DNA from: Phycisphaerales bacterium
Lineage (GTDB): Bacteria > Planctomycetota > Phycisphaerae > Phycisphaerales > UBA1924
Length of the DNA stretch: 64,000 bases
Assembly (NCBI GenBank): GCA_028289195.1
Contig: JANQQR010000008.1
Location: 95,499-159,498, forward strand
Reading direction: 5' to 3'
Shown: piece after piece, positions 42,563 to 53,595 of the stretch
Layout of the letters: the number at the start of each line of letters is the position of its first letter
How positions within the stretch are numbered: the first letter of the stretch is position 1
Program-made: the position numbers and the translations under genes
Notes under the pieces: model-generated
Told to the model about the DNA's origin: nothing
Database searches by the model: none
What the model saw: only the letters and a program-made list of their open reading frames with translations

Positions 42563-43531
42563 CTACTCGAGGCCCAGGCGCTCCGCCTCCCGGAGCACCG
42601 CGTCCCACTGGACGCGCTTTGTGACCATCTGCGGGAACACCTGGCGCACGACCCCTTCCTTGTCGATCAGGTAGGTCGTCGCGCGGTCGTACCCTGTCGT
42701 GACCCCGCGATCGACATCCGCGACGATCTCGAAGGGCGGCGGCTCTTTGAATCGCCCGAGGAACCTCCCGTGCGATTCGAGGTCCTTGTCCTCTTGGGCG
42801 ATGGCGATCGCGACAAAGTCCCGCTCGGCAAACCCGCCCCACATGTCCTGCAGCTGAACCAGCTGCGTCGCGCAGTACGGTCACCAGAACGCGCGGTAGG
42901 TCGTCACGATGACGTTGTTCTTGCCGAGGTGCTCGCTGAGATCGACCTCCGAGCCGTCTGCCCGCGGCAGGACGAACGCCTGAGCTTCATCGCCCACAGC
43001 GAGCGTGCCGTTCTCGCCCCAGTCGGAGGCTGACGCCTGCGAATCGGCGCTCTCCGAGGCCCCGGCGCTGATCGGCAGCTCCACACGCCGCCGGACGAAC
43101 CAGTTCTCGCCATCGGCATCCGCGAGGTAGACGACCGCGCTGATCCCGAGCGTTGCTCCGGACGCGACATCACCGCCGATCGAAAACGGAACAACGGTCT
43201 CCCCGGCCTCGACCTCGCGCTCCCAGGGAAGCTCGAGGAAGTTCGCCCGCGCCAGCTGCCCGAACTCGGTCACCCGGTCACCGAGCAGCTCGACTCCGTC
43301 GGGAGTATCGATCTGGATGAGCACGCCGGGGCTGCCCTCGATCGATGCGCTCCAGCCGTCGGCGACGCGGAGACCGACGATCAACTCGAGCTCCTGACCG
43401 GATTGGATCGCATCGGGCATCCGCGCCTCGAGCACGACCCCGTCACCCGGCGGGCCTCCGAGCGCCGATCCGGCGATCAGCAGCACCGACAACGCTGCGC
43501 TCGCCCGCCCCATGATTGGCTTGTTTCCCAT
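42563..43531 (-). CDS. Selenoprotein: secreted peroxiredoxin/thioredoxin-like, UxxC
   Basis: A 322-aa protein read through an in-frame UGA at 42883-42881 (Sec217). A signal peptide (RASAALSVLLIAGSALG) precedes a DsbD-alpha-like beta domain at about residues 30-170 and an AhpC/TSA-type redoxin domain at about 180-322. The redox site is FW-U-PYC, with Sec in the position of the first Cys of a CxxC motif. The sequence after the UGA (VQLQDMWGGFAERDFVAIAIA; ATTYLIDKEGVV) continues the thioredoxin fold without a break. ATG 43531 is chosen for the signal peptide. A SECIS-like hairpin lies 15-31 nt past the UGA. Confidence 0.93.
42850..42866 (-). promoter_or_regulatory. SECIS-like hairpin in the peroxiredoxin-like selenoprotein gene
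   Basis: A perfect 7-bp stem (GCAGCTG with CAGCTGC) with a GTT loop; the loop begins 22 nt after the UGA. This is the distance and guanine-containing apical loop expected of a bacterial SECIS recognised by SelB. Confidence 0.8.
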
Positions 43532-43542
43532 CGAACCGCGCC

Positions 43543-44931
43543 TCACTTTCCGAGCACGTTGAAGTCTTGCCGCAGATAGAGGCAGACGCCGTCCGCCCCT
43601 TCGCACACATAGTACAGGGCGTATCCCCGCACCCTGAGATCATCCATTCGCCCGCCCTCGGGCGCGTGCACCTCGAATTCGATGGTCCGCGTTTCATCGC
43701 TCACCGGCGCCTCGAGATTCGCGACTTCGAACAGCTCAGCGTCCGTGCGCCAGCCGTCACCGGTGTCCACCCACACGACGAGGCCGCCGCCCTCGTTGTT
43801 CCAGTGCGCACGCAGGTCGTCGTTCGGCATGAGCGATAGGTGCACCCGAGCCGCTGGTGCATCCCCCGACGTGTGCGGCACCACGACGGAACTCAGGCTG
43901 ATGAGCCCCTGCGAATCCGCGAGAATCGCGCCTCCTGCATCCGGCTGCTCTGCAGATCGCTGCGACGCGGAGAACGCCCGCTCGGGCGACGTCAATTCCG
44001 CCCCACGCGGCTCCACGCTCAGAGCGACCGGCGTCTCGCCGCGGGCCCGGATTTCGGCTCGGGCTTCGTCCACCCAGGAGTAGAACGGGTACGGCTTGTC
44101 CAGCCGGGGCCCGAACTGCTGGATACGCCGGCGCCAGATGTACTGGTTGGGATCGGTCTCGAGCGCAGCGGACCACGCTTCGACCGCTTCGCCGAAGTCC
44201 GTCGTGTGGCGTTCTTGAGAGTCGTAGCGCATCCGGTAGGCGACACCACGCTGAAACGCCAGCGCGCCGTCCGAATGCTCGCCAGTGAGCACGGAGATCG
44301 CTCCCTCGTAGTCGGGGTCCTCGCCGGAGACCAGGCGCAGGGCCTCGTATCCCGGCCCCTCCGTCGCGTAGCCTGGGGCCTCCGCCTCCCCGTTGGCGGG
44401 CCCCGCATCGAGGAACGCCTGCAGGTCCTCGTCACCGGGCCACAGCTTCACGACCACACCGCTCTCGTCGATCAGGTAGGTCAGCGGAACGAGCGGTGCT
44501 CCGATCAGGTTGAACGAATCAACGAGGATCGGGAAGTCCATCTGCTTCCACTGCATGAACAGCCGGCAGCGATCCGGGTGCTGCTCGAGGATCACCCCGA
44601 TGACGTTGATCTCACCGGCCCGCTGCGATTCCAGAGTCTTGGTGTACCAACCTGGCACGTGCACCCTGCAGCCCGCTCACCACGAGGCGAAGACGTGCAG
44701 CACCGTCCGGCGCCCGTCGATCAGCGATTCGAGCGAGGTCATCTCGCCCGTGCGCAGATCAGGGAGGCGCAACGCGGGGAACGCCGTCCCTTCGGCGATG
44801 AACTCACGCCCGAGATCCCGAGGCGACCGCGTCTGGGCGGGAGCGGCCCGAACGACGCAAAGCGCCGCGACGACGATCATCAGGATGAGCAGGGCGCGAT
44901 CGATAGCCGGCTCCTCGGTCCGCCGGACCAA
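43543..44931 (-). CDS. Selenoprotein: secreted thioredoxin-like, UxxC, with DsbD-alpha-like tail
   Basis: A 462-aa protein with in-frame UGA at 44679-44677 (Sec85). Signal peptide-like ALLILMIVVAALCVVRAAPAQ, then a thioredoxin domain at about residues 45-170 with site FASW-U-AGC (Sec85, Cys88) and the cis-Pro strand VPLTYLIDESGVVV. A helical middle (about 180-290) follows. The C-terminal DsbD-alpha-like domain at about 340-462 carries a Cys443-x6-Cys450 pair (YYVCEGADGVC). The start is uncertain: TTG at 44931 has GGAGG only one base away, and ATG 44880 would cut into the signal peptide. Confidence 0.9.
44644..44658 (-). promoter_or_regulatory. SECIS-like hairpin in the thioredoxin-like selenoprotein gene
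   Basis: A 6-bp stem (GTGCCA with TGGTAC, one G-U pair) with a GGT loop starting 25 nt after the UGA. An outer GGT/ACC helix at indexes 12-14 and 34-36 extends it across a 4-nt bulge. Confidence 0.75.
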
Positions 44932-44948
44932 GCCTCCGAGCCCGCGTC

Positions 44949-46433
44949 CTATTCCGAGCGGGTCCCGCTAATCGGGAAATCGCCGAACGTGCTGCGATGG
45001 AACCCCCGCAGCGAGTCGCCCTCGAATTCCACCTCGACGAGTTCCGGGTTGGGGCCGTAGGGCTGGAGGTAGCGGAGCATCGAGCCGTCGAACGAGACCA
45101 CGGAGATGTCCGGGTTCAGCCCCTCCATCCCCGACCAGCCGGTCAGCACGCCGTCCTCGACGTACAGGCTCAGTGTGTACGGCTCCTGTGCCATCGCCAT
45201 GTTCATGGTCCAGTTGCCGCACAGAGCCGCGATCTGCTCGTCGCTCGCCGTCACCTCCGGCTCGGGGATCTCGCCGTGCTGCCAATCGAGCCCGTCGAGC
45301 ATCCGCTGCTCATACTGCTGACGGAAGGTGAACCCCGCGCCGCGCGCCGGGCGCCTCGCGAGGGTGTACTCCTGGCGCACGGGCCTGCACCAGCCCTCGG
45401 CATCGTTGCACGCGAAGTAGAACACGCTCACCGTCAACTCTGCATCTTCGGCCCAGCCCTCGACATCAACGAGGAACTCCCGCGGATCGGCGTCTGAGGC
45501 GGCATCGACCTCCGGGGCGTCCATGGAAGCCGGTGAGACCGCAACGCCCTCGGGCGCGGACACCTCGACGTGGATCGGCGCCACGTCGTTGTTCCAGTGC
45601 ACGTGGTACAGCGGGTCGAGTAGGAAGCCCAGGTAGAGCTTGCCCGCACCCGAACCGAGCACGTCGCGCGTCACCTCAGCGCGGAGCTTGACGTAGAACG
45701 GCTGGTTGTCCTCGCCGACGAGCGGCGTTGTGCCGATCGCCTGCATGAACTCGGGGCGCTCGATCGGATCGAGCACGCCCTCCGGAGCCGCAGCGAGCGG
45801 TTCGGGCTCGGGCATATTGAGGTCTTCAAGGCGCGTCGGGTTCTCGACCGGGCCGATGAGCTCCTCGAGCTCGCGCCGGAGGCGGTACGGGTTGCTCCAA
45901 CCGTGCGCCCGGACGATTACCCCGTCCGGATCAATAATGAACTCGCTGTTCGGGGCGCTCCCGAGCGCCTGCGCGAGCTCGTTGTCCATCGTGTCGCACA
46001 GCCACTCGGCCTTGGTCCCGAGCGTGCGCTTCGCCTCGGCGATGTGCATCAGACGCTCTTCGATCGAGAACGGTGCGATGTAGTTGTTCCAGTCGGGGTG
46101 CGCCAGCGTCTTGTAGACGTAGATGAAACGTACGCCCTTCTCCTGATAGTCCCTGACTGTCGGCTCCAAACTGGAGACGTTGCGGAGGAACGGCGGTCAT
46201 GTGAGGCAGCCGAAGATCAGGACGGTGTACTTGCCCTCCAGAAGACTCGTCCGGAAGGCATCCCCCGACTCGTCGAACACCTCGACATCGGGCATCTGCT
46301 GCCCGGCTTCGGGGAAGTTGGGGCCCCACCACTCATCGGTCACCTCGGGCTTGGCTTCGGGCTGCGCGGGCGCCGTCGAAACGCCGCCGCAGACCACCAT
46401 CGCCCCGAGCACCGCTGCCGCTGAGAATCTCAT
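44949..46433 (-). CDS. Selenoprotein: iodothyronine-deiodinase-like, secreted
   Basis: A 494-aa protein with in-frame UGA at 46199-46197 (Sec79). After a signal peptide (MRFSAAAVLGAMVVCGGVSTA) the active site reads FGCLT-U-PPFLR, matching the SCTUPPF signature of animal deiodinases with Cys76 three residues before Sec. Downstream deiodinase-type motifs follow: VYVYKTLAHPDWNN-like FIYVYKTLAHPDW, WLCDTMDNELAQALGSAP and IIDPDGVIVRAHGW. The C-terminal half (about 240-410) is a DsbD-alpha-like domain with Cys342-x6-Cys349 and HWNN. ATG 46433 is 7 nt after GGAGG. The enzymatic substrate is unknown; bacterial dehalogenase or thiol redox are both possible. Confidence 0.93.
46161..46179 (-). promoter_or_regulatory. 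SECIS-like hairpin in the deiodinase-like gene
   Basis: A stem CTCCA/TGGAG with a GTT loop starting 26 nt after the UGA. Two more G-C pairs lie beyond a single T/C mismatch. Confidence 0.75.
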
Positions 46434-46517
46434 CATCCGGCCTCCGCTGCCGAGCCCGGCGCCTTCCGCACCGGACACGCTTCCTCGCACCATGCCGGAT
46501 TCGCGCCGGCTTCAAAA

Positions 46518-46614
46518 CGGGAGTGGATGGGAATCGAACCCACCGAGGCGCTGCTATGCGGCGCCTCCAACGGGTTTGAAGCCCGCGGCCGCCACCAGGC
46601 GTGCTGACACTCCC
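46518..46614 (-). tRNA. selC: tRNA-Sec (anticodon TCA)
   Basis: A 97-nt tRNA. The acceptor GGGAGTG pairs with CACTCCC; counting an eighth mismatched pair the acceptor/T helix is the bacterial 8+5 form. The anticodon loop CTTCAAA carries TCA, and the long variable arm has a 7-bp core (GAGGCGC with GCGCCTC). The T-arm is GTGGG-TTCGATT-CCCAT. CCA is not encoded. It sits between selA and the deiodinase-like gene on the same strand. Confidence 0.95.
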
Positions 46615-46625
46615 AGTCGAGCAAC

Positions 46626-46631
46626 ACAATA
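46626..46631 (-). promoter_or_regulatory. Possible -10 box of tRNA-Sec
   Basis: TATTGT on the minus strand ends 11 nt before the tRNA 5' end, in the 74-nt gap after selA. It would let tRNA-Sec and the three downstream genes be transcribed on their own. No -35 box is seen. Confidence 0.4.
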
Positions 46632-46688
46632 CCCCACAGGGCTGTGCCCCGCCCGCGCCGTCCGGTAACGCCAGCTGGCCATCCTTCT

Positions 46689-48080
46689 TTACGCACTCTC
46701 CAGCGATGCCTCGAGCGCCCGGATAATCCCCTCGTCCTGATCCGGCAGCACGGCGCGGAGATCCAGAACAACCGAGTTGTCGACCACGCGCCCCACCACT
46801 CTCGGTTGCCCGAGGCGAAGCCTGCGCCCGATCTCACTCTCGCTGATCGATGTCGAGCGGATGCGCAACCCGGCGCTCTCGATCGCATCGGCGGGCGCCG
46901 AACCGCCACCGACGAAGCCATCGATGCCAACGAGGACCTCTGCGCGTGCGTGATCAGGGACAATCAGCCGCTCCGCGATCGACCGCGCGCGCCGCTCGAG
47001 CTCGTGCACCGGCGTCCGCAACATCGCGCGAACCGGTATCCGGCGATCGATCTCTCCCGGGTGATCTCGGTACAGCCGGAGCGTCGCTTCGAGCGCCGCG
47101 AGCACGAGCTTGTCCACCCGCAGCGCCCGCGCCAAGGGGTTCGCTTCGATCCGCTCGATCAACTCCCGTCTCCCCGCGATAACTCCGGCCTGCGGGCCGC
47201 CCAGCAGCTTGTCACCGCTGAAGATCACGAGGTCGGCCCCCGCAGCGATCGAGGCAGCGGCATCGGGCTCGTCGTCGCTGATGGCCGGATGCCCCGACTC
47301 AGACAGCAGACCGGAGCCGGTGTCGTGGATTACCGGCACACCGTGGGCAGACCCAAGGCTCGCGAGCTCATCGATCGACGCGCTCTGCGTGAAACCCTCG
47401 ATCCTGTAATTCGAGGTGTGCATCTTCAGGATCGCGCCGCTGCCGTCGCCGATCGCGCGTTCGTAGTCGGCCAGCCTGGTCTTGTTCGTGGTCCCAACAC
47501 CCCGAAGCACCGCTCCGCCCGATTCAATCACGTCCGGCAGGCGGAAGCTCCCGCCGATCTCGATGAGCTCCCCGCGAGAGACGACGACGTCCCGGCCCTT
47601 GGCAAGCGTGGAGAGCGTGAGCACGAGCGCGCCGGCGTTGTTGTTCACAACCGTCGCCGACTCCGCGCCGGTCAGGCTCCGCAGCAGGCCACGCACGGAG
47701 TCGCTGCGCTTGTTGCGTTTGCCGCTCTCGATGTCGATCTCGACGGGGGCGTAGCCGGAGGCGACGCCCGCCAGCGCCCAAACGGCTTCCGGGGCCATCG
47801 GCGCGCGTCCCAGCCCGGTGTGCAGCACGATCCCCGTGGCATTGATGACCGGCGCCATCGCCTGGCGATGCTCTGCACCGATCAATTCTCGCGCTCGCGC
47901 GACGACGTCCGTCCCGGAACGCCCCGCGAGGATCTCGATGCGGGCCTCCTCGATCGCTCGGCGCACGCATGACGTCACAACCGATGCTTCGCCGACGTCT
48001 CCGAGCGAGTCCGACAGCGTCTGCACGCTGGGGAGCGATCGGAGTCTCTCGCGCACCTGATCCGACACTCCCTCAGCCAT
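46689..48080 (-). CDS. selA: SelA, L-seryl-tRNA(Sec) selenium transferase
   Basis: A 463-aa PLP enzyme that converts Ser-tRNA(Sec) to Sec-tRNA(Sec) with selenophosphate. Family motifs: INATGIVLHTGLGRAPM, YAPVEIDIESGKRNKR, ATVVNNNAGALVLTL, SRGELIEIGGSFRLPDV, GTTNKTRLADYE, VPVIHDTGSGLL and the PLP-binding Lys291 in FSGDKLLGGPQAG. The length is normal. It overlaps the selB stop by 8 nt, so the two are translationally coupled. Confidence 0.97.
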   Translation of the reverse strand: MAEGVSDQVRERLRSLPSVQTLSDSLGDVGEASVVTSCVRRAIEEARIEILAGRSGTDVVARARELIGAEHRQAMAPVINATGIVLHTGLGRAPMAPEAVWALAGVASGYAPVEIDIESGKRNKRSDSVRGLLRSLTGAESATVVNNNAGALVLTLSTLAKGRDVVVSRGELIEIGGSFRLPDVIESGGAVLRGVGTTNKTRLADYERAIGDGSGAILKMHTSNYRIEGFTQSASIDELASLGSAHGVPVIHDTGSGLLSESGHPAISDDEPDAAASIAAGADLVIFSGDKLLGGPQAGVIAGRRELIERIEANPLARALRVDKLVLAALEATLRLYRDHPGEIDRRIPVRAMLRTPVHELERRARSIAERLIVPDHARAEVLVGIDGFVGGGSAPADAIESAGLRIRSTSISESEIGRRLRLGQPRVVGRVVDNSVVLDLRAVLPDQDEGIIRALEASLESA

Positions 48081-50001
48081 CCGCTCCTCCCGTCACCACC
48101 GCCGGCGCCTTGGCCAGCACCCGCGCATCGCCGCGACGCTTCGTGAGACCGATCCGGTCGAGATACTCCCCGAACGGAACCGCGTACTTGCGGCTGGTCC
48201 CGAAAAGGTCCCGCAGATCCGCCATCGTCATCGATCCCGATCGCTCGAGATGCCCCGTCACCCGCTCGCGCATGTCCGCCTCGACGCCGGGCGTGACGTG
48301 CACACCCGAGCCCACGTGCACCGCGCGACCCAGACCGACCGCGAGCTTCAGGATGGCATCGATATCCCTCTGATGCCACCCGCACGACTGCGCGAGCGCC
48401 GGAGGCATCGGGGGCTGGAACCCCGCTGCGCCCAGTTCCTGCTCGATCTGTGCCAGCAGCGATTCCTGGCTCTTGGTCAACTGCGGCCCGGCGCTGGCGA
48501 GCCCGATCCCGCCTGACCGGTCGATGAGCGTGCCCTTCTCCACCATGTGGACGAGCACGGCCTCAAACAGCCCGCTCTCAACCCTCGGGAACACGCGCTC
48601 GAGGCGCTCGCGCGGCGCTGAGGTTTCCAACGGGTTGTTCTCGTGGAATGCCGCAAGCCACGACTCGATCCTGGCGCTCAGATCCGCGAGTCGTTCGCTG
48701 TGAACTGCAACGTCGCCACCGAGGCGAACGACTTCACCGCGATCGATCAGGCCGGCCAGCGCTGCCTCGGCGCTCCCGGGGGCGAGCCCGGCGTTCCGAA
48801 CCAGTTCCCGCGCATCGACCGTTCGATTGACCGAGACCCAGGCGCCCGCACCGGCGCACTCATCGGAATCAACTCGCCCCAGACGCTCCAGCACCGTCCC
48901 CGAGGGACGCTTGAGAGGCGGCGCGTCAGGGTCGACCACGACCCCGCTCGCGATCGTCACAAGGGGGGATTCCGAGCGCAGCACGATCGGCTGTCGCCCC
49001 CGTGCCACGACCGGCTGAGCGCACAAGAGCTGCGCGACGCCCGACTCGCCCGGTTCGAGCGACTCACGATCGAGCAGCTTGACGCCAGCCATGACCTCTG
49101 CCGTCCCGATGTGCAGGCGGACACGTGATCGGTTCCTGATCGCCCATGGGCAGTCCTTCAGGGCGCGCACGCCGACGGTGAGGCGTCGCGACGGACGGAA
49201 CACACCGGTCGTCGCGAGCTCCTGGCCGCGCTCGATCTCCGAATGGTGGAGGTCCGGGAGATTCAGAGCGACGCGCTGCCCAGCGCTGACGGATTCCAGC
49301 TTCTCGCCGTGGCTGTGGATGCCGCGCACCCGGACCGGGCGTCCGGCAGGGAGCCACTCGAGCTCCATGCCCTCGTCGATCCGACCCGACCACAGCGTTC
49401 CCGTCACGACGGTGCCGATCCCCTGCACAACAAACGACCGATCGACGGGCAGACGCACGACATCGCTCGAAGCACGCGACTCGTGCTCCCGCGCGAGAAC
49501 ACGGATTCCCTCTCGGAGCGCGTCGATGCCCTCTCCGGACGATGCGCTCGTGCGCACGATCGGGGAGCCCTCGAGGAACGTATCGCGCACGAGCGCTCGC
49601 ACATCCTGCTCGACCATGTCCAGCCAGTCCGGCTCCGCCACGTCGCATTTCGTAATCGCGATGAGCCCCGCGGGCACGCGCAGCGCCTCGAGGATCGCCA
49701 GGTGCTCCCGGGTCTGGGGCATCACCGAATCATCGGCGGCCACGACCAGCAGCCCCGCCCCAATGCCAGAGGCTCCAGCCAGCATGTTGCGGATGAACCG
49801 TTCGTGCCCCGGCACGTCGACGATCCCGACCCGCACCCCGTCCATGTCCAGGTGGGCAAAGCCCAGGTCGATCGTGATGCCCCGGTCTTTCTCCTGCGGG
49901 AGTCTGTCCGTATCGATCCCGGTCAGCGCGCGCACGAGCGACGTCTTCCCGTGGTCGATGTGACCCGCCGTCCCGATGGTGAGCGCGCTGCGTCCGGACA
50001 C
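48073..50001 (-). CDS. selB: SelB, selenocysteine-specific elongation factor
   Basis: A 642-aa GTPase that brings Sec-tRNA(Sec) to UGA by binding the SECIS hairpin. G domain: GTAGHIDHGKTSLVRALTG, DLGFAHLD, IVDVPGHERFIRN and AITKCD; then EF-Tu-like domains 2 and 3 (about 175-350) and four winged-helix modules at about 380-642 that contact the SECIS. The start is GTG 50001, with a TACCAT box ending 6 nt upstream. The gene sits 29 nt after selD. Confidence 0.97.
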   Translation of the reverse strand: MSGRSALTIGTAGHIDHGKTSLVRALTGIDTDRLPQEKDRGITIDLGFAHLDMDGVRVGIVDVPGHERFIRNMLAGASGIGAGLLVVAADDSVMPQTREHLAILEALRVPAGLIAITKCDVAEPDWLDMVEQDVRALVRDTFLEGSPIVRTSASSGEGIDALREGIRVLAREHESRASSDVVRLPVDRSFVVQGIGTVVTGTLWSGRIDEGMELEWLPAGRPVRVRGIHSHGEKLESVSAGQRVALNLPDLHHSEIERGQELATTGVFRPSRRLTVGVRALKDCPWAIRNRSRVRLHIGTAEVMAGVKLLDRESLEPGESGVAQLLCAQPVVARGRQPIVLRSESPLVTIASGVVVDPDAPPLKRPSGTVLERLGRVDSDECAGAGAWVSVNRTVDARELVRNAGLAPGSAEAALAGLIDRGEVVRLGGDVAVHSERLADLSARIESWLAAFHENNPLETSAPRERLERVFPRVESGLFEAVLVHMVEKGTLIDRSGGIGLASAGPQLTKSQESLLAQIEQELGAAGFQPPMPPALAQSCGWHQRDIDAILKLAVGLGRAVHVGSGVHVTPGVEADMRERVTGHLERSGSMTMADLRDLFGTSRKYAVPFGEYLDRIGLTKRRGDARVLAKAPAVVTGGADG

Positions 50002-50007
50002 GGGCAG

Positions 50008-50013
50008 ATGGTA
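50008..50013 (-). promoter_or_regulatory. Leaderless -10 box of selB
   Basis: TACCAT on the minus strand ends 6 nt before the GTG in the 29-nt selD-selB gap. Confidence 0.4.
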
Positions 50014-50030
50014 GGAACGCCTGCTCCGCT

Positions 50031-51101
50031 TCAGCGGATCACAAGCGACGCGCTCCCCGGCGCCATCACCTCACCGATAACCGCGGCCTGACCAAGCCCG
50101 GCATCAGCGCACCGGGCGATCAGGGCATCGGCGCGCGATCCCTCGATCGCGACCAGCAACCCGCCGGACGTCTGCGGGTCGAAGAGGAACTCGAGCAGGG
50201 GCGTCTCCGGCTCGCTGGAATGCTGGATCAGCGCCGACGCGTGCTCGCGGTTCGTCTTGCTCGCGCGGGAGTGGTGCTCGGACGTCGCCAACCCCAGAGC
50301 CCCATCCAGAAGCGGCAAGCGCGCCAACTCGATCGCCAGCGTCGCTCCGCTGGCTGCAGCCATCTCCCCTGCATGGACTGCCAGTCCGAAGCCGGTGATG
50401 TCGGTCGCCCCCGACGCTCCCAGTTCGCGGGCGCCGTCGCCGGCACTCAGGTTGAGCGCCCGCATCGAGTCGACGGCGCCCTGCAAGACAGGATCCGGGC
50501 AGTTGCCCTTCTTCCGAGCGGTCGTCACGAGACCGGTCCCGAGCGGCTTCGTCAGCACGAGCACATCGCCCGGGCGCGCCCCAGCATTGGTCAGCATACG
50601 CGCGGGGTCGACGGTGCCCGTAACCGCGAGCCCATATTTGATCTCCTGGTCGCGAACGGAATGCCCCCCCACTACGGTCGCGCCCGCGAACCCGACCCGC
50701 TCGGCGCCGCCCGCGAGAATCTCGGCCAGCACGTCCATGGGCAGGACGTTGTCCGGATACCCGACGATGTTGAGGCACGTCCGCGCGTCGGCCCCCATCG
50801 CGAAGCAGTCGCTCAAGGCGTTGGCCGCCGCGATCTGCCCGAACGTGAACGGATCGTCGACGATCGGCGAGAAGAAGTCGACCGTCTGCACGATCGCCAG
50901 ATCGTCGCGCAGGCGATAGACCGCGGCATCGGAGAAGTGCTCCGCGCCGACGAGCACCGACGGATCGGTCACTGCCGGGAGAGATCGCACAACCTGTGCG
51001 ACGGCGTCAGCCGAGAGCTTGCCCGCTCACCCGGCGCAGTTGCTGTAGGCCGTCAGCCGGATCTCTTTCCCGGTCGTCGCCCTTGGTTCCGTCTCGGACA
51101 T
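50031..51101 (-). CDS. selD: SelD, selenophosphate synthase containing selenocysteine
   Basis: A 356-aa enzyme (ATP + selenide to selenophosphate) read through UGA at 51029-51027 (Sec25). The active site is NCAG-U-AGKLSAD, with Sec where many SelD have Cys and the catalytic Lys three residues later. Further motifs: TVDFFSPIVDDPFTFGQIAAANALSD, VVGGHSVRDQEIKYGLAVTG, LVLTKPLGTG, TDITGFGLAVHAGEMA and FDPQTSGGLLVAI. ATG 51101 restores the N-terminus; without recoding the gene appears to begin at an internal position. A TATGCT box ends 6 nt upstream of the ATG. Confidence 0.96.
50985..51001 (-). promoter_or_regulatory. SECIS-like hairpin in selD
   Basis: A perfect 7-bp stem (TCGCACA with TGTGCGA) with a GGT loop. 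The loop starts 33 nt after the UGA, the longest spacing of the five in this window. Confidence 0.8.
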
Positions 51102-51107
51102 GGACCA

Positions 51108-51113
51108 AGCATA
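51108..51113 (-). promoter_or_regulatory. Leaderless -10 box of selD
   Basis: TATGCT on the minus strand ends 6 nt before the selD ATG, just after the stop of the AhpD-like gene. Confidence 0.45.
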
Positions 51114-51119
51114 CGCCGG

Positions 51120-51746
51120 TCAGCTTCCCGCCCGCTCGGCGTCCCAGTCCCGGAGGACGCCGCTGTAGTCACGAAGGCGCCGCTGCTCCCACTCGTCGTG
51201 CCCAGGTGCCATCCAGTCCTCGGGCGCGACACCCAGCGCGTCGGCGATCCGGTTGATGTAGTTGAAGTACGCAATCACCTGGGTGGCCAGTGAGATCTGC
51301 TCATCGGACCACCCCCGCTGGCGCAACGCGTCCACATCACCCTGGCCCATCGAGCCCGGGTCGAGAGTAATCTTCACCGCGAACCTGCACAGGGCGTCGT
51401 CCTCAGCCGGCAGGCCGGCCGACGTGAAGTCGAACACCAAGCGCTCGGCAGTCTCGTCATCCCCGGACTCCGAACCGAAGTCCCGCGCGTGGCTCAGCGT
51501 TCAGTAGTAGCAGCCGTTCACGCCGCTGACGACGGTCGCGAGCATCTCCCGCTTGTCGGGCGCGAGCGCGTTCGGGCTTTTCATCAGGCTCACGTAGAAC
51601 TGCATCGACGCCTGCATGGACCGGGCGTCGAGGCTCATCATCTTGATGATGTTCGCCACGCCGCCGGCCCGCTGGCGCCCGGCGTCATAGGCCGCCTTGA
51701 CGCGGCCCTCGGCTTCGTGCTCTTCAACGATGCGGATGTAGGGCAT
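51120..51746 (-). CDS. Selenoprotein: AhpD-like alkylhydroperoxidase, CxxU
   Basis: A 208-aa carboxymuconolactone-decarboxylase/AhpD-fold protein read through UGA at 51503-51501 (Sec82). The motif is GC79-YY-U82 followed by H86 in TLSHARDF, which is the CxxC...H active site of peroxidase-related AhpD proteins with Sec as the second residue. After the UGA the fold continues (RLVFDFTSAGLPAED, DEQISLATQVIAYFNYINRIADALGV). An AAGGGAG ribosome binding site lies 11 nt before ATG 51746. It opens the selenium island, upstream of selD. Confidence 0.93.
51465..51483 (-). promoter_or_regulatory. SECIS-like hairpin in the AhpD-like gene
   Basis: An 8-bp stem (GGACTTCG with CGGAGTCC, one U-G pair) with a GTT loop starting 26 nt after the UGA. 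It is the longest of the five hairpins. Confidence 0.8.
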
Positions 51747-51882
51747 CGCTCTTCACGCTCCCTTGACAGACTTCTTTACCGCTCCAGCCTACACACCCAT
51801 CCGGGCCGCGGCCTCGCGCCGGCGGTACCCTGTGGCCGGCCAGGCTTGTGCACGAGGCGACGAACCCTCCAGGAGAGCAGAG

Positions 51883-53595
51883 ATGAGCGAGCAGACCCTG
51901 CTGAACCGCGCCAATCGCCGGGATTTCTTCGTCCACAGCGCCGGGATGATGATCGCCGCCTCTCTCCTGCCGGCCGCGAAGGCCATCGCCCGCCAGGAGG
52001 GAGACGCCGCCACCCCGTCGCGCCCCGAGATCTCGCCGGACACCATCGCCGAGGCCGAGAAGCTCATCGGCGTCGAGTTCACCCCCGAAGAGCGCGCGAT
52101 GATCGCAGAGACCGTCGCCGAGAACATCGGGACCTATGTCGAGCGCCGCAAGGTGGACCTCCCAAACGAGCTCGGCCCGCTGAGCTCGTTCAAACTCGAT
52201 CCCCGGGACGCCCTGCGCACGCCCATGTCCGAGGTGTTCCAGGGCGCCCGCGAGGCGGCCCCGCAGGTCCCGGCGCAGGACGAGGACATCGCCTACGCCC
52301 CGCTCGGTCAGCTCGCCCGCTGGATCAACAGCCGCCAGCTCACGAGCGAAACGCTGACCGAGGTCTACCTCGATCGCATCAAGGCCCTCGGCCCCACGCT
52401 CGAATGCGTCGTTACGGTCACGGAAGAACTCGCGATGGAGCAGGCCCAGGCCGCCGACCGCGAGCGCTCCAACGGCCAGTATCGCGGCCCGCTGCACGGC
52501 ATCCCCTACGGGCTGAAAGACCTGTTCGACACCTCGACGATCAAGACCACCTGGGGCGCCGAGCCTTGGAAGGACCGCCTTCCAACATCGGATTCCGCAG
52601 TCACGCGCAAGCTCCGCGACGCCGGGGCCGTGCTCGTCGCCAAGACGACGCTCGGCGCGCTCGCCTACGGCGACATCTGGTTCGGCGGGCGGACCAACAA
52701 CCCCTGGAACCTCGAGCAGGGCTCCAGCGGGTCGAGCGCGGGTTCGGCGTCCGGTACCGCCGCGGGCCTCTACGGCTTCTCAATCGGAACCGAGACGCTG
52801 GGCTCGATTGTCTCGCCGTCGATGCGCTGCGGCACAACCGGCCTCCGGCCCACCTTCGGACGCGTGTCCCGCGAGGGCGCGATGGCCCTGTGCTGGAGTC
52901 TGGACAAGGTCGGGCCGATCTGCCGCCGGGTCGAGGACTGCATCGCGGTGCTCAACGCGATGAACGGCTCGACGAGCGGCGATCCCGGTTCGGTCGACGC
53001 TCCCATCGCCTTCGTGGCCGACGCCCCGGTCGATGCGTACCGGGTGGGCTACAACCCGGCGTGGTTCGAGGGTCCCGGGACGACCGACGTCGACCGCAAC
53101 GCCCTGGAAGCGCTCAAGCACACCGGCGTGGAACTGGTCGAGGTGGAACTGCCCGACTGGCCCTACGGCGCCCTCTACTCGATCCTGATCACCGAGGCCG
53201 CCGCCGCGTTCGAGCGCATGACGCTCGACGATGTCGACGACCAACTCACCTGGCAGGAGGCCCGCGCCTGGCCCAACACGTTCCGCTCGGCGTGGTTCAT
53301 CCCCGCGATCGAGTTCATGCAGGCCGAGCGCTTCCGGCGCAAGGTGGCCAACATGCTCGAGGACGTGATCTCGGACGTCGACGTGCTCTTCGGCCCCAGC
53401 TTCGCCGCAAGCCTGCTGCTGATGACCAACTTCACCGGCCACCCCCAGCTCTGCCTCCGCGCGGGCTTCAACGACGACGGCACCCCCCGCGGCGTGTCGT
53501 TCTGGGGCCACCACTTCGACGAGGGCACGCTCTGCCGCATCGGCATGGCGCTCGAGAATGAGCTCGGCGTCTGGGACAGACGCCCGGAGATCTAG
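51883..53595 (+). CDS. Exported amidase (amidase signature family)
   Basis: A 570-aa amidase-signature hydrolase. The N-terminus has a twin-arginine motif (NRRDFF) followed by AGMMIAASLLPAAKAIA, suggesting Tat export. The Lys-Ser-Ser triad is K212 in YGLKDLF, a Ser at about 282 in GSSGSSAGSAS and S308 in TETLGSIVSPS. ATG 51883 follows AGGAGAG; the longer frame upstream has no support. The family includes GatA, but an isolated exported member hydrolyses some amide rather than acting on tRNA. It ends one base before the convergent glpD stop. Confidence 0.9.
   Translation: MSEQTLLNRANRRDFFVHSAGMMIAASLLPAAKAIARQEGDAATPSRPEISPDTIAEAEKLIGVEFTPEERAMIAETVAENIGTYVERRKVDLPNELGPLSSFKLDPRDALRTPMSEVFQGAREAAPQVPAQDEDIAYAPLGQLARWINSRQLTSETLTEVYLDRIKALGPTLECVVTVTEELAMEQAQAADRERSNGQYRGPLHGIPYGLKDLFDTSTIKTTWGAEPWKDRLPTSDSAVTRKLRDAGAVLVAKTTLGALAYGDIWFGGRTNNPWNLEQGSSGSSAGSASGTAAGLYGFSIGTETLGSIVSPSMRCGTTGLRPTFGRVSREGAMALCWSLDKVGPICRRVEDCIAVLNAMNGSTSGDPGSVDAPIAFVADAPVDAYRVGYNPAWFEGPGTTDVDRNALEALKHTGVELVEVELPDWPYGALYSILITEAAAAFERMTLDDVDDQLTWQEARAWPNTFRSAWFIPAIEFMQAERFRRKVANMLEDVISDVDVLFGPSFAASLLLMTNFTGHPQLCLRAGFNDDGTPRGVSFWGHHFDEGTLCRIGMALENELGVWDRRPEI

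Follow-up and report, generated by a model that had tools for sequence, protein, structure and literature searches.

A selenocysteine gene island in a Phycisphaerales bacterium and a redoxin-tetratricopeptide family that looks obligately selenocysteine-containing

The 64,000-nucleotide stretch of DNA analysed here (the window) comes from a Phycisphaerales bacterium (assembly GCA_028289195.1, contig JANQQR010000008.1, positions 95,499 to 159,498) and carries an island of eight genes in which a complete selenocysteine (Sec) gene set stands together with five in-frame UGA codons, that of selD among them, which, judging by homologues in relatives, are very likely read as Sec. One of the island's proteins, built of a redoxin domain, tetratricopeptide (TPR)-like helices and a DsbD-alpha-like domain (redoxin-TPR), looks like a member of an obligate Sec family. 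When genome contigs were scanned with patterns derived from the C-terminal half of its alignment, 185 relatives were obtained; the best 80 were kept, and UGA occupies the Sec site in 80/80 of these loci. They belong to Acidobacteriota (27), Planctomycetota (22), Verrucomicrobiota (17), Gemmatimonadota (9), Poribacteria (1), Fidelibacterota (1) and Chloroflexota (1), with two unplaced. The genes of the island follow in minus-strand order, from 51746 to 42563.

51120..51746, minus strand: AhpD-like selenoprotein gene; 208 residues, Sec82 at UGA 51503-51501 (CYYU), terminal codon an ordinary UGA
50031..51101, minus strand: selD, selenophosphate synthetase; 356 residues, Sec25 at UGA 51029-51027 (NCAGUAGK)
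48073..50001, minus strand: selB, Sec-specific elongation factor; 642 residues, GTG start
46689..48080, minus strand: selA, L-seryl-tRNA(Sec) selenium transferase; 463 residues, 8-base overlap with selB
46518..46614, minus strand: tRNA-Sec, anticodon UCA; found by ARAGORN and by Rfam (RF01852, 69.6 bits against a gathering score of 47)
44949..46493, minus strand: deiodinase-like selenoprotein gene; start at 46493 or 46436, UGA 46199-46197 (CLTUPPF)
43543..44931, minus strand: redoxin-TPR selenoprotein gene; assumed TTG start, Sec85 at UGA 44679-44677 (SWUAGC)
42563..43531, minus strand: redoxin selenoprotein gene; 322 residues, Sec217 at UGA 42883-42881 (FWUPYC)

The sequence-only reading that preceded this analysis had placed these eight genes on one strand as a single array of full Sec machinery and five selenoprotein genes, and this is supported. 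The tRNA was recovered by both programs, and SelA (TIGR00474, 485.8 bits against an equivalog cut-off of 267.9), SelB (TIGR00475, 355.9 against 242.25, with SelB winged-helix domains present) and SelD (TIGR00476, 348.1 against 125) all exceed their NCBIfam cut-offs, so that SelA, SelB, SelD and tRNA-Sec, the genes by which the bacterial Sec-decoding trait is recognized, are all present. The AhpD-like protein belongs to TIGR01926 (145.7 bits against 81.8), with the CxxU motif in the form CYYU. Both selA and tRNA-Sec are single-copy in this genome; a second Rfam tRNA-Sec match (48.2 bits, over the cut-off) was rejected, being a tRNA-Ser according to ARAGORN.

Evidence for selenocysteine at the five UGA codons

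All five UGAs lie in frame at redox motifs, and each protein aligns to a relative on both sides of the codon, as the sequence-only reading had described. That reading would have been undone by degraded sequence past the UGAs; instead, relatives conserve the protein sequence downstream of all five, with 49 to 61% identity over aligned residues (one relative per gene). In all five genes, the third codon position has more downstream mismatches than either of the other two, as in the deiodinase-like gene (108/82/178 at positions 1/2/3) and the redoxin-TPR gene (139/128/198).

The presence of UGA at these sites depends on SelB, which was found in 17 of the 201 genomes of the order, including the window's own. 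Across the 201 genomes, UGA at these sites is confined to SelB-positive genomes, and the SelB-less homologues aligned there carry cysteine (Cys). Deiodinase-like homologues are present in 13 genomes, 11 of them aligned at the site: the two SelB-positive genomes, the window's and G278, have UGA there, and the other nine, which are SelB-negative, have Cys (L070, with no row, and G556, with no locus, were left out of this count). Among 30 AhpD-like loci, three have UGA, all in SelB-positive genomes (the other two, G472 and G394, at the same place as the window), and 25 have Cys (22 in SelB-negative and three in SelB-positive genomes), with L157 (misaligned) and L160 (site uncovered) left out. Besides the Sec form, the window's own genome encodes an AhpD-like paralogue that has Cys and is 38% identical (L166, C2:276600-277145, plus strand). 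For the redoxin, the genomes of the order show UGA in the window and in G278, and Cys in four distant SelB-negative homologues; UGA is additionally seen in L173. Within the order, redoxin-TPR occurs in six genomes, all six SelB-positive and all six with UGA. SelD has UGA in 10 of 11 copies from relatives' loci, the remaining copy (G428) having Cys.

It is therefore very improbable that the genes are decayed or broken in frame, with the UGAs as genuine stops and the downstream halves not translated together with the upstream ones. This explanation would draw on the one-sided nature of public protein sets, in which the best 120 matches to redoxin-TPR cover no more than 81% of the protein, all without the Sec-bearing part, and the redoxin is matched by entries P0249-P0253 over its first two thirds only; against it stand the conservation of the protein sequence before and after each of the five UGAs, the use of UGA at one and the same codon in every one of the best 80 redoxin-TPR loci, and the dependence on SelB. 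If UGA were a general sense codon in this organism, the island's codons would be nothing special. The concentration of five in-frame UGAs in one block is in favor of this reading, but tRNA-Sec and SelB are present, and it was rejected because the AhpD-like, selD, selB and redoxin-TPR genes of the same block end at ordinary UGAs; it is the least probable of the explanations considered.

A hairpin resembling a Sec insertion sequence (SECIS) follows each of the five codons; loops are given in round brackets between the two stem arms.

51453..51503, minus strand: SECIS-like hairpin of the AhpD-like gene, GGACTTCG(GTT)CGGAGTCC, loop 25 bases past the UGA
50979..51029, minus strand: SECIS-like hairpin of selD, GTCGCACA(GGT)TGTGCGAT, loop 32 bases past the UGA
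46149..46199, minus strand: SECIS-like hairpin of the deiodinase-like gene, CTCCA(GTT)TGGAG, loop 25 bases past the UGA
44629..44679, minus strand: SECIS-like hairpin of the redoxin-TPR gene, GTGCCA(GGT)TGGTAC, loop 24 bases past the UGA
42833..42883, minus strand: SECIS-like hairpin of the redoxin gene, GCAGCTG(GTT)CAGCTGC, loop 21 bases past the UGA

The bacterial SECIS model, as given in the accessible part of a review, places a small apical loop, with G among its first two nucleotides, at 16-37 bases past the UGA (PMC13188914), and all five island sites carry a hairpin of this form. In its loose version the published form is met by 45% of the window's TGAs at five pairs, and therefore says little. 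A GG or GU loop with at least five stem pairs is found at 5/5 island sites, compared with 17.8% of the 1503 TGA triplets of the window (binomial 1.8e-4), and six pairs at 4/5, or 6/8 with three sites elsewhere in the genome, compared with a background of 8.1%. Two observations weigh against a role for these hairpins. Folding energies past the UGAs are not below those of shuffled sequences (z 0.16, -1.23, 0.03, 0.80, -1.58), and a narrow hairpin definition of our own, which matches 1.5% of the window's TGAs, fits only 12 of 26 relatives' sites and none of five in redoxin-TPR. The narrow definition was written after inspection of the window's sites, and the published model was relied on for this reason.

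The island does not hold the whole selenoproteome. A search of the genome with AhpC-TSA found 21 places, five of which contain one TGA; two of these are in the island, and three are UGA-interrupted redoxin-fold genes elsewhere (FYRGVWUPYC, FYANWUAPC and FWAVFUAPC), listed here with loci, coordinates and motifs matched in order.

C11:330461-330901, plus strand: redoxin-fold gene with VWUPYC, locus L119
C15:22716-23075, minus strand: redoxin-fold gene with NWUAPC, locus L124
C11:287359-287721, minus strand: redoxin-fold gene with VFUAPC, locus L127

A strict SECIS-like hairpin follows two of the three, L124 failing the strict form. These genes bring the count of candidate selenoproteins in the genome to at least eight, AhpC-TSA being the family swept. 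The block thus carries complete machinery and five selenoprotein genes, but it is not the whole trait.

The redoxin-TPR family and the predicted exported selenoproteins

Among 392 planctomycete genomes, 45 have a redoxin-TPR match; 44 matches cover the Sec site, each covering stretch containing exactly one TGA (the G155 match leaves the site uncovered and was excluded), and in 28 further loci the single TGA is the Sec site. No Cys form was found in the best 80 of the 185 loci or in the 44 site-covering planctomycete genomes; the search query carried Cys at the site, and a Cys form would therefore have scored better. SelA is present in 242 of the 392 sampled genomes, in 41/45 redoxin-TPR carriers compared with 201/347 non-carriers (p 5.6e-6), and the carriers with no SelA match are G082, G150, G264 and G280. 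Fifty of the 80 loci come from 49 carrier genomes in which SelB was sought: it lies above the cut-off in 41, and some of the other eight show pieces only.

None of the NCBIfam models exceeds its cut-off in the five redoxin-TPR members scanned; the best match is NF041054 (ResA-like, WAxxUGC), with 53 bits for the window's protein and 34 to 77 for the four others, against a cut-off of 300. The motif of redoxin-TPR is SWUAGC, and TPR and DsbD-alpha-like parts are added to it. Literature searches returned no paper on a selenoprotein combining tetratricopeptide, redoxin and UGA, and none on selenoproteins or selenocysteine in Phycisphaerae. The table of the review, as far as available, has the broad entries 'Redoxin family protein, PF08534, UxxC' and 'Thiol-disulfide isomerase-like protein', which could include redoxin-TPR, and absence from print is therefore not claimed (PMC13188914). 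In public protein sets, these selenoproteins seem to be present only as pieces from one side of the UGA: entries P0008, P0009, P0011 and P0027 start directly past it, and a start past the UGA seems to apply to the redoxin-TPR entries at large (P0008-P0127) and to some deiodinase-like ones (P0129, P0130, P0132). The lack of the Sec-bearing part in all 120 best database matches points to an annotation gap, and a family in which Sec is seemingly irreplaceable would make directly testable why Sec persists where Cys usually suffices.

The deiodinase-like, redoxin-TPR and redoxin products have hydrophobic N-termini, from which export is predicted, and a thioredoxin fold. In the deiodinase-like protein the thioredoxin fold is followed by a DsbD-alpha-like domain with a C343-x6-C350 pair (numbered from the start at 46436); in redoxin-TPR, the redoxin domain is followed by TPR-like helices and a DsbD-alpha-like domain with C443-x6-C450. 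The redoxin gene product has an N-terminal domain of unknown family and matches AhpC-TSA with 64.7 bits. The deiodinase-like protein falls within T4_deiodinase (PF00837, 29.0 bits against a Pfam cut-off of 27), with deiodinase 2 and 3 cores at the top of its structure comparison, and scores 43.9 with NF038285 (deiodinase_rel), below the cut-off of 250; the label is given on sequence likeness and implies no deiodinase activity, none being claimed. EF-hand models match 17 of the 48 proteins in a hand-picked deiodinase-like alignment (A1), so that the family has calcium-binding fusions.

The C-terminal domain is common to the deiodinase-like and redoxin-TPR proteins, with an invariant C-x6-C pair, and appears to resemble DsbD-alpha while lying outside PF11412. 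This likeness has evidence against it: DsbD_N (PF11412) reaches only 16.2 bits in the deiodinase-like domain (cut-off 25) and does not match redoxin-TPR, and the structure comparison lists of both models are filled by the thioredoxin domain, with no DsbD-alpha among the matches listed. Among 48 chosen deiodinase-like homologues, 19 match DsbD_N at E up to 0.01. Profile searches of solved structures gave no match for the deiodinase-like alignment and 56 matches up to E 1 for redoxin-TPR, nearly all to TPR proteins.

The island would work as follows. SelD would make selenophosphate, SelA would turn Ser-tRNA(Sec) into Sec-tRNA(Sec), and SelB would bring the latter to UGAs that precede a SECIS-like hairpin; as SelD too contains Sec, the block would be expected to influence its own supply of Sec by feedback. 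The shared domain suggests an exported selenol relay of the deiodinase-like and redoxin-TPR proteins, in which the C-x6-C pair would hand electrons to the selenol of the thioredoxin-fold Sec domain, with a predicted role in reducing extracytoplasmic peroxides or disulfides. For the AhpD-like protein, a cytoplasmic site of action is expected.

The locus in relatives, its transcription and its ancestry

The sel loci were read in 15 SelB-positive genomes of the order, that is, all except the window's own and the fragmented G524 (SelB in two pieces), with homologues of the window's proteins as the search targets; L045, a 100-base placeholder, was left out. SelB, selA and tRNA-Sec are contiguous in 12/15, with selD less than 1 kb from selB in eight of those 12; the exceptions are G368 (scattered), G428 (other order) and G392 (a stretch with no SelA match). 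Of the window's four substrates outside the machinery, five of the 15 loci hold at least one and at most three, and none holds all four: deiodinase-like and redoxin in G278, redoxin-TPR in G303 and G396, redoxin-TPR and AhpD-like in G472, and a distant deiodinase-like, redoxin-TPR and AhpD-like in G394 (a weak deiodinase-like match in G536, with no stop, was excluded). Locus L206 runs selA, tRNA, deiodinase-like, redoxin-TPR, and L236 has selB, selD, redoxin-TPR and AhpD-like together. The SelA of G394 (L097, 11134-12503) was matched as two overlapping stretches; the assembly may contain a frameshift or sequencing error here. The window's substrate set is thus the fullest among the loci compared, and the earlier view of the array as unusual is partly supported. 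Sec machinery and several Sec substrates form one gene neighborhood in planctomycetes.

A single minus-strand transcript, processed to release the tRNA, would be expected from the common strand and from gaps of -8 to 81 bases (in block order 18, 29, -8, 74, 24 or 81 depending on the start, 17 and 11). Gene placement in relatives speaks against it: the AhpD-like gene of G394 and the redoxin-TPR gene of G472 are on the opposite strand, and the redoxin-TPR gene of G422 lies about 1.9 Mb from the sel genes. It is quite possible, if the less probable arrangement, that the genes form two or more transcripts and are adjacent because this is cheap to regulate or to keep together; the set, order and strand of the substrates vary among relatives, and the tRNA sits mid-block, separated from its neighbors by 74 bases on one side and 24 or 81 on the other, but the window has a single strand and short gaps throughout, and L173 retains the order of six genes and the tRNA. 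Next to the island, a nitroreductase gene starts 27 bases beyond the redoxin gene, and at the other end an amidase gene (51763-53595, plus strand) diverges from it, with a likely ATG at 51880 that would leave about 130 bases for a shared promoter region; its N-terminal RRDFF stretch presumably resembles a twin-arginine translocation (Tat) signal.

The sequence-only reading had also proposed that the block could be transferred whole and bring the trait in a single step, an idea that finds no support in the block's even G+C content, its ordinary neighboring genes or the trees of SelA, SelB and SelD. Such a mobile or recently acquired unit is unlikely. In its favor, SelB is patchy, with 17 of 201 genomes in the order and, among listed family members with a match, only the window's genome and G278; and the SelA and SelB of G428 are placed with those of a different family in trees that carry a long-branch warning. 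On the other side, the G+C content of the island bins (0.670-0.684) lies inside the range of the window (0.639-0.692); none of eight neighboring genes scanned is a mobile gene, all being ordinary enzymes (repeats and attachment sites were not examined); the substrates are reshuffled among relatives, with no constant unit; and a newly arrived block would presumably need some Sec-independent start-up, because SelD itself needs Sec. The SelA, SelB, SelD and joined trees are poorly resolved at depth, and in the joined tree a clade of the window with G278 costs 2.46 log units and is not rejected (p-AU 0.427). The window's set may go back either to old inheritance followed by many losses or to an old transfer. 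The grouping of G428 suggests that transfer of Sec sets probably happens within the order, and its locus (L100, 7660-14111), with selA, selB and selD in another order, a Cys SelD and tRNA-Sec on the opposite strand, is a possible transferred set.

Taken together, these results allow a joint picture, which is offered tentatively and has somewhat less than an even chance of being right in all its parts. The SWUAGC redoxin-TPR-DsbD-alpha-like proteins would be an undescribed obligate Sec family of at least seven phyla, lacking a Cys form and hidden by gene callers that cut at UGA, and the island would be a self-reinforcing Sec operon, with a Sec-dependent SelD, the machinery and an exported deiodinase-like/redoxin-TPR selenol relay sharing one electron-delivery domain, kept close and reshuffled through the Phycisphaerales.

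Comparison with known systems

The closest counterpart is L173 (Phycisphaerales bacterium OFTM8, JAJDDM010000035.1), in which selD, selB, selA, tRNA-Sec, deiodinase-like, redoxin-TPR and redoxin genes lie on one strand in the same order, with UGA at its four Sec sites. Unlike the island, this locus has no AhpD-like match, and its deiodinase-like protein is distant (28% identity, SYTUPPF).

Several elements of the island are known from the accessible parts of published work: operons of sel genes with one substrate (PMC5029168), multi-selenoprotein operons (PMC13188914) and, from a planctomycete, a Sec operon arranged differently (PMC4807772). AhpD-like (TIGR01926), deiodinase-like (PF00837), SelD and Prx-like/redoxin families with UxxC are likewise known selenoproteins in the available portion of the review table (PMC13188914). 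The P2 Sec operon is, like the island, planctomycete, with operon-like Sec-insertion genes, but it has another layout and an extra transglutaminase-like gene, and the portion available describes no selenoprotein substrates within it (PMC4807772). In the fdhA operon, as far as that text is available, the Sec machinery also adjoins a substrate gene, the single substrate being formate dehydrogenase, whereas the island has four redox substrates besides SelD (PMC5029168). The SAO and Tso operons share with the island the presence of several selenoprotein genes per operon, but the families are others, and machinery and tRNA-Sec are not described inside them in the part of the review available (PMC13188914). 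Bacterial deiodinase-like selenoproteins of the T4_deiodinase family, with Sec and Cys forms and a bacterial SECIS, have been reported as well; the accessible part of that report makes no mention of a DsbD-alpha-like C-terminal domain or of a Sec-island setting, which are features of the protein encoded by the island (PMC1088965).

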